Positions 8,795 through 53,034 of a stretch of DNA of 64,000 bases are shown here, one piece after another. Source of the stretch: Tremella fuciformis (Eukaryota; Basidiomycota; Tremellomycetes; Tremellales; Tremellaceae); contig CP136491.1 in the NCBI GenBank assembly GCA_032768795.1, positions 3,536,501 to 3,600,500 on the forward strand, written 5' to 3'. Below the pieces are notes generated by a model. That model did no database searches. It was given only the letters and a program-made list of their open reading frames with translations, and was not told the origin of the DNA. Both the position numbers and the translations under genes were made by a program. Each line of letters starts with the position of its first letter. The first letter of the stretch is position 1.

Positions 8795-11700
8795 TTATTC
8801 TGTCATCTGAAGCATCTGACGTCTAGACGCATCCCTTGCTGCCAATACACGTCCTGATACTCCCCCCCTTCTACTCTCTGTGTTCAAGCTGTTCAATCTT
8901 GCCCAATCAAAGCCTGGCTTGAAAGCAAGGCCCTCCAGAGATCTTGCTCTTGAGATTGCCACAAATGTCAATCCCGTTGAGAAGTCGGCTGAACCAAGAT
9001 CAATCACTGCCTTGTCCAGCGTCATACCCTGTGATTTGTGTATGGTGATAGCAAATGCAAGCTGCAGTGGCAGCTGGCGTCGAGAGCACCGCTGCCCGTT
9101 TGTTGTCTCCCATCTGGCTGTATGGGGCACAATGGGAACCAGTGGTATGTTGTCTGTGGTGTGCCAGGGTGTTGGTCCAGTGTAGGATGGGAAGGCGACC
9201 ATGACCACAGAAGGAACAGATTGATGAGGAGGCTCAGATGGTGAGAGCCCAATCTGATATACTGTGCCCCTGGTGCCATTGACCAATCCCTGCTCGATCC
9301 AGAGGTTGCGAGAAAGCATGACTTGAGCACCAATCATGAGGAAGACAGCAGGAGCAAGCCCCTGTGCCTGTTCCTCTGAAGCCTGGGCTGCTCCTACCCC
9401 TGTGTGCTGAGCCAGAGAGCGCAGTACAGGCTGTCCAGAGCGAGCCAAAGTGTGTAGGTTGATCTCGGAGACACTCTGCTTTGTTGCACAAAGACATACA
9501 GCATCTTGAAAGGCCTGCTGAGATGCCGGGGAAAGGTTCCCCCAGAAGCGAGAGGACAGAAGGGTGTAGTCCTCCTGTTGAGGTGTCCCGGTGTGCAGGC
9601 GAGCAAGGGTTGCTTTGAAGGCAGTGGTGGTAGGGTCGGAGCCTTCCTGCCTCATAACAGCATCAAGCTGAACGCTCTCAGTGAAAGCAAGGTAGATATC
9701 TCGGCCAATGTTGCTGAGCCTGCCTAGATAGGAGGTTTTTGTCGAGCGTGCAGTGTTGTACAGTGGAGTGTCTCCCACAGGGGGCAGTTGACCAAAGTCG
9801 CCAATGAGCAGGACAGACAGACCGGCAAAGGGCAAGTACGCTGTCGACGGAAAGATTTGACCAAGAGCAAGGTTGATTCTCCCCAAGGCCGCCCTTCCAA
9901 CCATGCTTTTCTCATCAATGATGAGGTATCGTGTCCCATGCCACTCTTCCTGGAGGCTGGCAAGCTTTCCCTCTCCAAGCTTGTCATGACTTTCCTCTAT
10001 TGAGCCTCCAAGACCAAGGGCAGCATGGTATGTTGAACCAGCAATGTTGAATGCCGCCACACCCGTGGGGGCAAGCCGGCGGACAATGGGATTTGTGCTG
10101 AAGTCGAGATTGTTGTGCTGCCCAGATTGGAGCCCTTGAAGAGCTTGGGATATGGCGTCAATGAGGAAGGATTTGCCTGTTCCTGCTGTCCCATCGATGT
10201 TGAGGAGTATTTGAGGGACTGACTCTCCAGAGAGCAGACGGTTGGCATGGCGCAAGACCTTGTCAAAGATGAGGCGCTGTGTGGTGTTGAGTAGTTGGGG
10301 ATCGACAGTGTTGCGAGCTACAGAAGGCTGAGACTGCTTGGTCAGCTCACAGTATGCAGTGGATTGTAGGCCACTGCTCACCTTCTTGCGTTCGGTTTCT
10401 AAGTAGCTTGCCCTCTCTCCTATACCATCTGATCCCCACTCCCTCCCCACTGCTTCCCAATCGTGGGAAGTATCAATATCACGTGCTCCAAGCAGTGGCC
10501 CATTCCACCCATCTTCATCAAACTGAGGGCCCATTCCAGCCAGAACTTGCCAGTCATCAAGCTCGTGGTCATTGACTTCTTCACCCTCAGAAAACTCTGA
10601 GTCACTGTCGTTTTCATTGTCACCCTGTTGTTGACGGATGGGTCGCTTGGGCAATGTGTCTTGGTGCCCCTCTGGGTGGTCCTCAGTACAGCGAGAAAAA
10701 GCTTCTGTCCAGGATTCGTCATCAAGCTTGAGCTCTGAAGGGTGTCGATGAGGATGGTGGAGTAGTAACTTTGCCCGGCACCAGTTTTGGTGATCCTCAG
10801 ACTGAGGGTCTGATGGATAATACAGCGGCCAGAGAATGATGATCTTTGGGTGCTTCCTTCGAGTGGCGTTGCGACCTTGTTTCCGGTAGAATTGAAACCA
10901 TTCGTACAGGCTGATGCCCTCATGCTCTGGCTGGCGTGCCAAGTAGGCATCGTGCCAGTCTTGCTCCTCCACACCTTGGTCCAGTCCCTCATCTTCCTGC
11001 CTCTGCCTCAGGCGTCTCTGTCTCTTTTCCAGTATGCAGAGTGTGCCAAACTCTCGTGATGCAGACATCATATGTCGACCAAAGAGCTGATGACAGACTT
11101 CCTGAGCACTGTAATCCCTCTCGGTGACAATGCGGCTGAGCATCTTCTGGAAGACAATTCGTGAAGATGTTTCTTGCTCCAGGCGGGTTGAGATAGCCTG
11201 CATTATCTCGCCAAAGTTGTTGGATGGTTTTTCGCATTTTGAAGCATACTTGGAGATGTAGGAGGCAACTGCACGGGGATCTGTGCATGGACTGATGTCG
11301 GAGTTGGCTCGCCATCCCAGTGCAGTGACTGCATTGTAACTGTTGAGGTGGGTGTCGTTGCGTGGTGTGATGAGTTGCTTGTTTCTGTTGGGATTGACAA
11401 CCAGTCGGAGTTCTGTCTCCAGCTCCTTGGGGAACTTGAAGCGACAGACAAGCGGACTGTTGGGAGGAGATCCTTTTGGGCGGCGAAGACAATAGGCAGT
11501 GCACCTCGTGTGCCTCTGGACACGGTTGAGCATCTGTGCCAGATCTTTGAAGCGAAAGATGATTTCGTCGCTACTGTGGGCAGAGGGGTGCTTTGGATGA
11601 GGCGGAATGTCCTCTCCAGGATTGATGGTTGACACTCTGGTGGACCAGAAGTCAAGGAATTCCTGGACACTGTCCGGATTGTTGATATCAAGGGTGTCTG

Positions 11701-14216
11701 GGGATGGCGCCCCCTTGAGCCAAACCAGTCCATGGACATGGCTGGAGCCTCGATTTTGCCATTCAAAGCGATACCACCAGTCCTCTATTCCAAGCAGGGG
11801 TTTGAGGACCTTGGCCAAGAACAGCTCAAATCTTCGATAGAACCAGCAAGCTGCAATTGCTGGGTTCTCATTGACGTTCTTGGCATTGATGCGTTGTCGA
11901 TCAGGTTCGCTCATAGTTGGTAGCGCTTGGTCCGGCATGTGGACGTGGAGATCTGGCCACTGAAGATCCGCAGCTGAGAATGTGATGAAAGCATGTGGAG
12001 TGCCCAGTTGACGGATCATTGCAGCAAGATTGCGACTCTGCTGTGCCCAGTAGGGTGGTGTTCCGGTTAAGGTGGCTGCTGATCGTCGCACTCGAGATGC
12101 CAGCTGCTTGGCTGGGTCGGACACCATGGCAGCAATGTCTGCAGCAGAGAGGGCTCGGTCCTCTTCATTCCGGCTGACATAGAAGCAGGAGAGCCGTTTT
12201 GCTCGCCACCTCATGATGCAGTTGAAGGCATAATAGCTGACTGTCAGCTTGGCTTAATGCTGAGAGATGCACTCACCGGAATCGAGGGTGTTTTGCAAAC
12301 CTTCCATCCTGATAGTAGAGCAGGTGACGGAAGTAGTCTGAATCACGTATTGTGGTAGGCCGTTGTTGATGCAGATCCCCCTGGCCGGTGGGGAAGAGGA
12401 AGGGGAAGGCCTTGGTGAGGAATGGGTTGCTGATGTCGTGCTCATTGATTGGAGTGGAATGCAGCACAGGTCCAGTGAGGAGCAGGGGTGCTGGTGGTCC
12501 TCCATCCACCACCTGTTCCAGTGCTTCCCGGATCTCCTCCACAATATTGTTGCCTTCTCCAAGGTTTGGTATAGCCAGCTCTGGCAAGCTTGTCTCCTCT
12601 GCTGACTCCTGCTCAACTGGCCCAGTGTCAGGCTCAGGTGCGCTGTACTGCACCTCCTCCAAGTTGACAGACCGCAGCTGATGGAAGACAGAACCGTTTT
12701 CAGGAAGGGAATTGATTGCTTCCCAGTTGATCTCGACATTCTGAAAGGCTGGATGGAAGTGTTGTAGTGCTTGCAGGTTTGCGAGAATGCGTGACCGCTG
12801 GACTTGGAACTCTGGTCGGCGTGCAAAATCCTCTGAGGGATTGGCAGCGTTGGCGGGGGCTTGGGCATTTGTCGGCTTGATGATGAGAACATCAAGGTCG
12901 GTGACGGTGAGGGGAAGTCGAGAGAGGAATCTGCCACTGTCATGGGCATAGAGACAGGTGTGGCCTCCGTATTTGGTTTGTCCACCACCAACGCGCCATG
13001 TTTGAAGCAGCACATGGTAGGGAGAGAGGAGCATCTCTTCCACCTGTGAGGGCAAGTCAGGGACTGCTCTGCCAGCTGCACGGCACAGTTCCTGCAGAGA
13101 AGGACCTGTGAAGTCAGTCATGAGAAGCACATACAATCCTGGACACTGACCTGGATCCATACAGTTGGCAGATGTCCATTTCTCCCCATCAATTTGACAA
13201 CGTGAACATTTACCCTGTTGGACCTTGAGTCCAAACCATTTCTCATTGCAGTTCTCGCAAGTCTCCATCGTCTCAGCTGCCATTGCTGAGTGGAAGTCCC
13301 CAATACACCCAATGGCAGCTTCAGAGAGGCAGATGTCGTCAAGATCGTTGGGTGTTGCAGGAATGGGCAGGAAGGCATTGCCCAGCATGTCGACTGAGAG
13401 GGATGACTGAGTTGACTGTTGTCGACGATGATAGGCTGCTCTGGAGGATTCGCGACAGGTGCTGCAAGTCTTGAAGCGGCGAGAGGCTGTCCCTGCTTGG
13501 AGAAACTCGGAATGTTCTTTCCAGGTCTTGCACTTGAAGCAGCGTGACTGTCCAGCATGGCGATCCAGGCGTGGTGGTGGGGCTGGTGGCTGTTCTGTGA
13601 CTCGGTGTGCAGCACCTTGAGGCGGGCTGGGCGGAGTGGCGTAGGGCAGTTGAGGTGCACGTCTGGTTCGTGTGGGGCGGCCAAGCTCTACAGGATGTAG
13701 ATCCTGGTTGCGACGTGGTGTTGGTGAGGTGACCTCATGGCGCGGGCGTGGAAGACCTCTCTGTGTACCAGGCGTAGGCTGAGAGCCTGGGGTGACTGGT
13801 GGCAATGGCCGGGTTGTGCGAGTGGGTGTGCCTGGCGCTGATTGGGAGTGATGCTGCTCCAAGCAAGATTGGCATGTGTTGCGTGGGCGACCTCGATTGT
13901 CTCGAAATCGAGGAGTGGCAAAGGTGAAGCCACATTTGATGCACTCAGCATGACCATGCCGTGACCGGGGTGTTGCAAGTGGGACTGGCGGTTGTTTGCG
14001 ACAGAAGGAGCATGTTTTGAAGAAGTCGCTGCTGCCCCGCCCTGAAGAAGCCTTCCGAAAGTGATCACCATTGAGAGTTGTGTGCTGACCCAAACAGCGT
14101 TGGCCTCGAGAGCAGTGCATTGCTGCAATATCTGGGACTTTCTGCATCAGTATGTGCATGCATCGCTTGAAGGCAAAGCTCACATTGATGTTATGGACAA
14201 GCCAACACTTGATCAT
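8795..14216 (-). CDS. Helitron Rep-helicase (RepHel transposase)
   Basis: This rolling-circle transposase is 1793 residues long in two exons. A 40-base intron (12237-12276, GTGAGT...GTCAG) joins HPRF-R to [13 protein letters not shown] in frame. The N-terminal ~350 residues carry several CxxC...CxxC zinc-knuckle pairs (CSFC, CIKC/CQSC, CFKC/CSTC, CENC/CSRC). A region ([18 protein letters not shown]) typical of sequence upstream of Helitron Rep follows. The HUH nuclease has [20 protein letters not shown], the metal-binding [10 protein letters not shown], and the two-tyrosine motif YISKYASK. The PIF1-type helicase has GTAGTGKS (Walker A), [30 protein letters not shown] and [12 protein letters not shown]. 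No frameshift or stop interrupts it, so the element may be active. The start at 14216 is the first in-frame ATG; later ATGs are possible. Confidence 0.92.
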
Positions 14217-18413: not shown

Positions 18414-19096
18414 TCAGCGTAGCTCTTACGGGGCGAATTTCTGCGGGTGTCCCTGGAACGAAAACGGTAAATGGGGGAATTAAATAAGAAAATTCCGGCC
18501 ATTCTGATTTCATCAGCACAATCCTAATATGCATTGTGTCCTTGCCAAATTGCCTTTCATCAGAGAATAAAGATCTATGCATGAGGCTGATGCATGGAAT
18601 GATCTCTGTAGCAGAACCAATCGCCTACATAGCTACTGCCATACCCTGCCCTATCATTGCACCAAAATGGTTACAATAGCGCAAGTCTGACAAGACTGCA
18701 ATAGGCTTGCCAGGTGGCAGCTGTGACATAGCCCCTGTGACCAGCTTGGCATGCCTATGATCATCTGATCAGCCTAGCATGCCCAACAAGCACTTGCGCA
18801 TCTCTTGATGAAGTGCTTTAGCTTGCAACTAATCAATGTTCTACAGTACATCCGGCTTTGCCGGATGCTTGACCCGTAAGGGCTGCGATGGCTGCGCCGC
18901 TAGGCGCAAGGGGGGGTCTTGGGGGGGTGTCCCACCCCCCCATGTCTAACGGAACCAAAGAACAAGGAATTGCATTAGGTTTTCCAAATTGCCTGAGAAC
19001 CAATAACTTGAATACCTGATTAGAAATTCAGAGCTAAAAAAGAATTGAAATAACGAGCTACGCCCTATCGCGCACTTTCCTGCACGATCTACCTAG
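18414..19096 (+). mobile_element. Non-autonomous Helitron copy C, nested in copy B
   Basis: A full 683-base copy (TCAGCG...CTAG) is inserted between A (18413) and T (19097) of copy B, without target duplication. It looks identical by eye to copy A in reverse orientation, including the hairpin cluster and the 3' stem. It has no coding capacity. Confidence 0.9.
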
Positions 19097-19685
19097 TTTC
19101 ATCAGCACAATCCTAATATGCATTGTGTCCTTGCCAAATTGCCTTTCATCAGAGAATAAAGATCTATGCATGAGGCTGATGCATGGAATGATCTCTGTAG
19201 CAGAACCAATCGCCTACATAGCTACTGCCATACCCTGCCCTATCATTGCACCAAAATGGTTACAATAGCGCAAGTCTGACAAGACTGCAATAGGCTTGCC
19301 AGGTGGCAGCTGTGACATAGCCCCTGTGACCAGCTTGGCATGCCTATGATCATCTGATCAGCCTAGCATGCCCAACAAGCACTTGCGCATCTCTTGATGA
19401 AGTGCTTTAGCTTGCAACTAATCAATGTTCTACAGTACATCCGGCTTTGCCGGATGCTTGACCCGTAAGGGCTGCGATGGCTGCGCCGCTAGGCGCAAGG
19501 GGGGGTCTTGGGGGGGTGTCCCACCCCCCCATGTCTAACGGAACCAAAGAACAAGGAATTGCATTAGGTTTTCCAAATTGCCTGAGAACCAATAACTTGA
19601 ATACCTGATTAGAAATTCAGAGCTAAAAAAGAATTGAAATAACGAGCTACGCCCTATCGCGCACTTTCCTGCACGATCTACCTAG
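19097..19685 (+). mobile_element. Non-autonomous Helitron copy B, 3' part
   Basis: These are the remaining 589 bases of the interrupted copy B, starting TTTCATCAGC directly after the CTAG of copy C and ending in its own CTAG at 19682-19685. The following base is T. It lies 166 bases from the stop of the downstream sugar transporter gene. Confidence 0.88.
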
Positions 19686-19851
19686 TATTTCCCCTCGGTA
19701 CATGATGCAATATGTGATGCTTCATTCCCTTGCTGCTCCCCGGCACACTATAATCGCATCGGGCAAATAGTATGGTACCGAGTCTCAGAGCATCTCCTTC
19801 CATCTTCGCCGAATGTCCCATGACAGAACGACGCGAGCCGTCCGGGATCCC

Positions 19852-51942: not shown

Positions 51943-52194
51943 TCTCAGTCCGCAGTGTAGCCTGTATGCATCTCACATATTCGTTACAGCGACGTGGTCG
52001 AGGTCGTTCAGCTCGCCGCGCGATGGAGGTGGGTCTATAAACTTCGCTGCAAAACAATTTGTGGGTTTCTAACAACGAGACGGCGGAGTTCCTCCAACCA
52101 GACTAGATCACTGGGTCGAGTGTTGCGGGCGTATGGGGCGCGCCAATGATTAATGATGGTTCTCTACTCCAATGCCCTTAACACCTTACCCCTC

Positions 52195-52302
52195 TGTCAG
52201 AACCGACTAGGTTATAACGGGACTCGAGATCAGCCAGTCGATCTGCGAGTATTGTACCTTTTGGTCAGTTGTTACCAAAGACCCGTTACTTTGGTCGTGA
52301 CA
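52195..52302. repeat. 5' LTR of the miniature element (108 bases)
   Basis: TGTCA...TGACA ends. It holds the 14-mer GATCTGCGAGTATT (52240-52253) complementary to the region just after the LTR. Confidence 0.85.
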
Positions 52303-52544
52303 GAATACTCGCAGATCACGGGTCAACCGTTCGACTCGCTGCCTCACTCTGTGCTTTTCAGAGCACTTTCTAGTCCGGGTAGTCGGGGCCCGAGGCGCCG
52401 CATTGGGTATGCGGGCGCTTTAGAGTTCATTCATCTCCGAGGCAGGAGCAACGCCAGACTTGGAAATTCGCCGACAGGGTCGGAGGGAGTTTCAGGTGCA
52501 AGCCTAGTGGCTGTCGGGACGTCAGCCTTGTGGGACGGGGCGAC

Positions 52545-52652
52545 TGTCAGAACCGACTAGGTTATAACGGGACTCGAGATCAGCCAGTCGATCTGCGAGT
52601 ATTGTACCTTTTGGTCAGTTGTTACCAGAGACCCGTTACTTTGGTCGTGACA
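52545..52652. repeat. 3' LTR of the miniature element (108 bases)
   Basis: This is a direct repeat of 52195-52302 with one visible substitution. It is followed by the target duplication and a C-run. Confidence 0.85.
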
Positions 52653-53034
52653 CCCTCCCCCCCCCCCCTGCCGGCTTGCCGAAGCCTTTCAAGTTGGCAT
52701 GTTCTGCGTCACTGTTGATGCACGCTTTTGAGTTGAGCATGCGTGTGTATCCGTCCCAGACTGACTGGGGACGCCAAGTCTGTTCGGCGGCGACATGTAC
52801 GGTGGCCTAGGGGGCAAAGAAGGCTTGCGCGTAACGGTGCAGGCGCATGGCGCATGATCCGGTCAATTAAGCTGTCAATCATCCGTGAACCGAGGATTCA
52901 AGCAGTAGATCATTTCACGCTTCGGTCCGGTGTCGCCGAAACAGACATTAAATTGTGTGTTCGAGTTAACTAGATATCTATGTACAACAGTACAGCGGGG
53001 CTTCGATCAACATCTACCTCTCACCGCGTCCGAC
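52653..53034. promoter_or_regulatory. Promoter region of the GST gene
   Basis: 382 bases lie between the miniature LTR element and the GST start. It opens with a run of C and contains no recognisable gene. The LTR insertion upstream could influence this promoter. Confidence 0.4.

Follow-up and report, generated by a model that had tools for sequence, protein, structure and literature searches.

A miniature LTR retrotransposon of Tremella fuciformis that very likely primes its own reverse transcription

How does an LTR element that codes for nothing begin its reverse transcription? The question is raised by a 458-nt element, here called TRIM1 (Table 1), in the stretch of 64,000 nucleotides from Tremella fuciformis that we analysed (the window). 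A terminal-repeat retrotransposon in miniature (TRIM) is normally assumed to be primed by the same tRNA as its helper. An earlier note on this DNA had described 108-nt LTRs with TGTCA/TGACA ends and one mismatch between them, a 5-bp target-site duplication and 242 internal nucleotides, all of which was borne out on re-reading. It had further claimed that 52304–52317 is the exact complement of LTR bases 52240–52253, as in a self-priming site of the Tf1/sushi kind; the two arms do pair at 14 of 14 positions, and the arm at the primer-binding site (PBS) begins one base past the 5' LTR. The G-rich tract before the 3' LTR is not all purine, being broken by T and C.

Table 1. Features of TRIM1 (52190–52657), numbered from the first letter of the window.
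Feature	Position	Strand	Remark
Left target-site duplication CCCTC	52190–52194	.	
5' LTR	52195–52302	+	108 nt, TGTCA...TGACA
TATAA in U3	52213–52217	+	27 nt upstream of the primer copy; candidate core promoter
Self-primer copy GATCTGCGAGTATT in the LTR	52240–52253	+	Putative register, by analogy with five other families
Spacer GA, LTR end to PBS	52303–52304	+	52304 is also able to pair
Primer-binding site AATACTCGCAGATC	52304–52317	+	Exact complement of 52240–52253; in all nine full copies
Internal region, non-coding	52303–52544	+	242 nt; stop-free for up to 80 codons across the three plus-strand frames
G-rich tract GTGGGACGGGGCGAC	52530–52544	+	Next to the 3' LTR, where a polypurine tract would be expected; putative role
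3' LTR	52545–52652	+	108 nt
Right target-site duplication CCCTC	52653–52657	.	

TRIM1 is repeated in the genome. A whole-element search through 28.1 Mb on 11 contigs gave 25 matches, of which sixteen cover LTR sequence only and nine are full copies, spread over six contigs; with the internal region as query, the same nine full copies were recovered and nothing more. The eight full copies outside the window and 12 of the 16 partial matches were read for comparison. The nine full copies measure 455–474 nt, with LTRs of 108–113 nt and longest plus-strand stop-free stretches of 68–82 codons. The duplication of the window copy is not strong evidence on its own because its right CCCTC sits within a C-rich tract; of the eight other full copies, all but one have identical 5-bp flanks (eight of nine overall), and the duplicated letters vary between copies. 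The two LTRs are identical within six copies, one base apart in two (the window copy and C10_90), and least alike in C9_409, where they show 4 mismatches plus a 5-nt gap. TRIM1 thus resembles known TRIMs, whose LTRs measure about 100–250 nt, in its LTR size, its length below 1 kb and its lack of coding sequence, and it has target-site duplications and multiple copies, as TRIMs do.

The PBS of TRIM1 has the form of a Tf1/sushi-type self-priming site. According to the accessible part of one account, Tf1 RNA pairs with the PBS through its first 11 bases and is cut by RNase H between bases 11 and 12 (PMC7175516), and a plant survey took a complement of at least 10 bp beginning 0–5 bp after the LTR as a putative self-primer (PMC6317226). 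TRIM1 has 14 nt at a spacer of 1, or 13 nt at a spacer of 2. When each of 63,800 window positions was treated as the start of a 108-nt pseudo-LTR and a complement beginning 0–4 nt after it was sought, at least 12 nt were found at 17 positions, seven of which are TRIM1 itself. Shuffled versions of the stretch 52240–52317 have a mean folding energy of −14.6 kcal/mol, and its RNA reaches −31.5 kcal/mol (z −6.8), a value that none of 200 shuffles equalled. The 14-mers are intact at 27 of 27 places in the nine full copies (nine PBSs and eighteen LTR copies). These account for 27 of the 30 sites at which the exact 14-mer occurs genome-wide, the others being two solo LTRs and a site at C7:2255738, where ARAGORN finds no tRNA. 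Since there is no 14-mer variation inside TRIM1, covariation can be assessed between families and not within this one.

The earlier note had also proposed a search for an autonomous element with the same LTR and a Tf1-like polymerase. The outcome was mixed: Ty3 families with a Tf2-type integrase domain, a chromodomain and similar LTR tips are present, and none has the TRIM1 LTR. Genome searches for an autonomous element sharing the TRIM1 LTR or PBS found none, and a partner search allowing 3 mismatches yielded, besides TRIM copies, one 3-mismatch site (C1:3595219; backwards control, 2). The polymerases belong to other families of the same genome, TRIM1 itself being without a chromodomain Ty3 polymerase, as it codes for nothing. 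In a survey of the genome for integrases, in which 150 of 483 candidate matches were scored, Pfam assigned five polymerase pieces to copia-type (L029, L030, and L031) and Ty3-type (L034 and L058) elements. The two Ty3-type pieces, which represent a 1369-aa family (L034) and a 1389-aa family (L058), encode RNase H, integrase, a Tf2-1-like SH3 domain and a chromodomain, as does a 1416-aa family (L133). A fourth Ty3 family (L089, also L090) has gag, protease, reverse transcriptase and RNase H downstream of L089, the piece stopping short of the integrase end.

LTR/PBS junctions were read in one copy of the 1416-aa family and one of the 1369-aa family (variants of both later), and in five copies of the 1389-aa family, whose LTRs are 98.9–99.8% identical. 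In all three families the LTR runs TGTCA...CGTGACA and is followed by GT and then by a complement of the family's own LTR. The L089 family has such a complement as well, with no TGTCA within 511 nt further upstream. One 1369-aa copy (C1:737515) gave no LTR pair and another gave one; for family O1208 no LTR pair was found in the stretch searched. Two copia families, read for contrast, have no self-complement. One copia element (L063, family 1763, C1:2598230–2602200) has LTRs of only 93 nt as matched, followed by GTTATGAGCC, which we take to resemble an initiator-tRNA-Met anticodon-arm primer site; comparison with 26 tRNA genes did not bear out this likeness.

A second self-primed TRIM, TRIM2, was newly found in the same genome. 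It has 135-nt LTRs, 207 nt inside, a GTTAT duplication and a 16-nt complement (L087:578–1054; C1:5607877–5608353). Of its 16 genome matches, twelve are partial and four are full. Three of the full ones are near-identical, two of them overlapping within a tandem array, and the fourth is diverged and has a TCTGG duplication. In the diverged copy one T-A pair has become C.C and an unbroken run of 14 remains; primer and PBS are identical at 15 of 16 positions versus 86–89% elsewhere, in a sample too small to count as selection. TRIM2 and the 1416-aa family have in common a tract before the 3' LTR (GGTTGGGCAG) and an LTR start (TGTCACGACGG), the latter occurring in the 1389-aa family too, and TGT(A/G)CC(C)TTTTGGT comes right after the primer in both TRIM1 and TRIM2. 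A tandem TRIM2 array at C3:2286531–2287349 (L088) shows three LTR ends 342 nt apart.

The self-priming reading was also examined by comparing families. For TRIM1, TRIM2, the three Ty3 families named by protein length and L089, each PBS was matched against each LTR for the longest complement, with a 560-nt piece before the junction standing in for the L089 LTR. Against its own LTR, the PBS has a complement of 14 nt in TRIM1, 16 in TRIM2, 16 in the 1416-aa family, 13 in the 1389-aa family, 14 in the 1369-aa family and 14 in L089; against the LTRs of other families it reaches 0–6 nt in 30 of 30 combinations. Because the match is long within a family and short across families, the primer letters change together with the PBS letters between families. 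This family-specific match, together with the perfect complement at the PBS position, the strong fold, the intact 14-mers of the duplicated copies and TATAA at −27, supports what the earlier note had proposed: judged from its sequence, TRIM1 is very likely a non-autonomous LTR retrotransposon that primes its own reverse transcription in the manner of Tf1/sushi elements.

The surroundings of the site are also alike. CGTGACA precedes the spacer in all six families, and the spacer is GT in five and GA in TRIM1. By analogy with these five, the TRIM1 primer is probably 13 nt (52240–52252 with 52305–52317) with a 2-nt spacer, rather than 14 nt with a 1-nt spacer. In the 13-nt register, the 3' edge of the primer falls between AT and TG in six of six families, which is only suggestive as an RNase H cleavage mark. 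TATA-like words stand before the primer copy at −27 and −28 in TRIM1 and TRIM2 and at −33 and −36 in two Ty3 families; none was found there in the other two Ty3 families.

Pairing is not universal at this LTR tip. A genome scan for the junction CGTGACAGWAT, with a filter that drops the 1389-aa family and the main 1369-aa form, returned 57 sites (backwards control, 7), and sixteen places were then read. The sites comprise 9 of TRIM1, 4 of TRIM2, 10 of 1416 type, 4 of variant 1369 type, 2 of L089 type, 9 of L084 type, L128 and 18 single sequences outside the complement tally. Among those of 1369 type, L125, L126 and L127 retain 12, 13 and 13 nt, and in L124 uncompensated changes on both the primer and the PBS side disrupt the pairing; the 1416-type L129 and L132 retain 15 and 16 nt. 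A 1416-like variant (L130) has a complement of 6 nt and L128 one of 8 nt that is the LTR start itself (~640 nt upstream read in each). The L084–L086 family (three copies) has 9 nt, with CT, not TG, after the primer. L131, with only 76 nt before the junction, was left out of the comparison. Old copies lose pairing; six families keep the pairing with their own LTR despite these exceptions.

The sequence suggests the following course of events. Transcription would start near 52240, the predicted RNA 5' end, at a distance from TATAA that is given in Table 1. The first 13–14 nt of the RNA would fold back onto the PBS just past the 5' LTR, and the reverse transcriptase/RNase H of a self-priming chromodomain Ty3 element could then cut the RNA after ..GTAT, with cleavage predicted after 52252 (between AT and TG) or 52253. 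The freed RNA 3' end would prime minus-strand DNA, extending into U5, and the integrase of the helper, recognising the TGTCA...CGTGACA tips, would insert the product with a 5-bp duplication. TRIM1 is thus probably mobilised in trans by self-priming chromoviruses as putative helpers. By LTR tip, the 1416-aa family would be the best candidate, and ten letters at the U5 end (GTCGTGACAG) are identical in TRIM1 and this family; such links between families are short, and the choice of helper is a guess.

A variant of self-priming, rather than an alternative to it, is that RNA polymerase III transcribes the TRIM from a promoter derived from a tRNA gene, the RNA then priming itself. With A-box and B-box patterns taken from the consensus, TRIM2 has exact matches to both, 69 nt apart and flanking the U5/PBS junction; neither strand of the window has such an exact pair, nor do 467,200 bases of other loci, a total that counts strands and overlaps. 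The T-arm of one tRNA-Val gene (L097, among 26 tRNA loci) is identical over 19 nt to GGTTGCGGGTTCGAGCCCC in TRIM2. The pair in TRIM2 is a possible Pol III promoter. At the corresponding places of TRIM1 (LTR 68 and 134), each box is matched at 9 of 11 letters, but this is weak, as the two window strands together contain 31 pairs with at least 9 letters of the A box and at least 10 of the B box. The TATA at −27 would fit Pol II equally, the B box lies outside the LTR, which separates TRIM1 from Helenus elements with their tRNA-like A and B boxes inside it, and no tRNA-like body was found in either TRIM by Rfam or ARAGORN. We therefore regard Pol III transcription as unlikely. The same holds for its fuller form, a doubtful picture in which chromoviruses with different primer letters would move two or more self-primed TRIM families, the RNAs of which (those of TRIM2 at the least) would come from a tRNA-gene-like Pol III promoter across the LTR/PBS junction. 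If true, Pol III transcripts would serve as both template and primer, and an element transcribed like a SINE would replicate like an LTR element without any tRNA.

A tRNA, or a cut tRNA as in copia/Ty5, might instead prime TRIM1, with the inverted repeat acting as a structural stem for packaging or dimerisation. The printed definition of TRIMs includes a tRNA primer (PMC6934838), and in fungal Helenus TRIMs, as far as the available text describes them, the primer is mostly a tRNA anticodon loop and the helpers are ascribed to copia (PMC10886601). There is, however, no TGG in 52303–52320, the best tRNA match to this stretch is 6 nt, under the shuffle mean of 7.2 (p 1.0), and the sites of the exact 14-mer lie in TRIM1 copies and solo LTRs, apart from the one without a tRNA. 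The tRNA comparison is weak because the gene set is partial (26 tRNA genes, from 63 of 484 candidates scored) and the two copia PBS controls failed to stand out against it (8 nt; p 0.33 and 0.22). Six families have a complement at the PBS position with differing letters, and we consider a tRNA primer quite improbable. That the direct repeats are a product of chance or recombination and no retrotransposon is refuted by the nine full copies on six contigs, eight of them with differing 5-bp duplications, and has next to no probability.

The proposed self-priming of TRIM1 can be set beside known systems. As in Tf1/sushi elements and Tcn1-like chromoviruses, the PBS after the 5' LTR complements a stretch within the LTR, and the putative helpers share with the Tf1/sushi group a chromodomain and a Tf2-1-like SH3 domain. 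Unlike Tf1, TRIM1 has only 458 nt, is non-coding and has a complement of 13–14 nt versus 11. Self-priming is predicted for most Tcn1-clade plant elements (PMC6317226), and one Selaginella Tcn1-like element without it is described in the accessible part of another report (PMC2864245). TRIMs have been recorded in three of five Boletales genomes (PMC5689174). The definition of TRIMs has a tRNA-complementary PBS (PMC6934838); that of TRIM1 is LTR-complementary. The ta-TRIM/lennie pair of Echinococcus (PMC4558846) is similar in that a TRIM is matched with a candidate helper through LTR ends and PBS; there, going by the available text, the helper is expected to share a tRNA PBS, whereas TRIM1 would carry its primer in cis. 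Fungal members of Helenus/TRIMp3, which have tRNA-derived LTRs, are likewise TRIMs with 5-bp duplications, and TRIM2 has A- and B-box sequences; the present case differs from fungal Helenus in that the putative helpers are Ty3-type chromoviruses and in that the LTR does not include the B box. The string 'self-prim' has 0 occurrences in the main text of PMC10886601. Self-priming and TRIMs are each already known, and among the open-licence papers listed by our searches none was found to describe the combination, a TRIM with an LTR-derived self-primer.

With the primer in cis, the PBS letters of TRIM1 should be free to differ from those of its helper, and a self-primed TRIM should require nothing beyond the enzymes of the helper and its own LTR tips. 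This would explain a 458-nt parasite with an LTR and PBS unlike those of any autonomous element found in the genome. What a self-priming reverse transcriptase recognises becomes testable on a minimal natural substrate, and six families with six primer sequences, a near-equal spacer and a common edge between AT and TG offer natural material from which such rules could be worked out.

Several single copies deserve description. The copy at C9:409120–409584 (L002/L009) has an intact duplication and unlike LTRs (113 versus 108 nt), and its internal region is identical to that of the window copy; gene conversion and inter-molecular strand transfer are possible readings. One solo LTR (L017, C3:380742–380856) lies between repeated ACGAAA words and has one surplus base at each end, a C ahead of TGTCA and a G behind TGACA, as might be left by insertion of an unprocessed cDNA end; it is a single case and carries no weight. 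In the copy without target duplication (C9:530888–531357, L004/L011), the 3' LTR is followed by GAATACTCGCAGAT, which equals the spacer and 13 of 14 PBS letters, and then by unrelated sequence, whose likeness to the LTR was equalled by 376 of 500 shuffles and that to the internal region by 276 of 300. We considered GAATACTCGCAGAT as a copied-primer fossil of priming and did not uphold this; the 5' flank is weakly PBS-region-like (79 of 500 shuffles as good), which counts against it, and whether copied primer or rearrangement, the stretch is left unexplained. Scans for primer remnants after the 3' LTR, each detecting about three quarters of possible remnants, gave 0 sites for the 1389-aa family and 3 for the 1369-aa family, the latter all variant PBSs with 12–13 nt complements and not remnants.

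Elsewhere in the window, a Helitron-type gene (Helitron_like_N and PIF1 helicase) adjoins a DUF6570 frame at 8795–14216, both on the minus strand, and a perfect 590-bp tandem duplication occupies 18508–19686.
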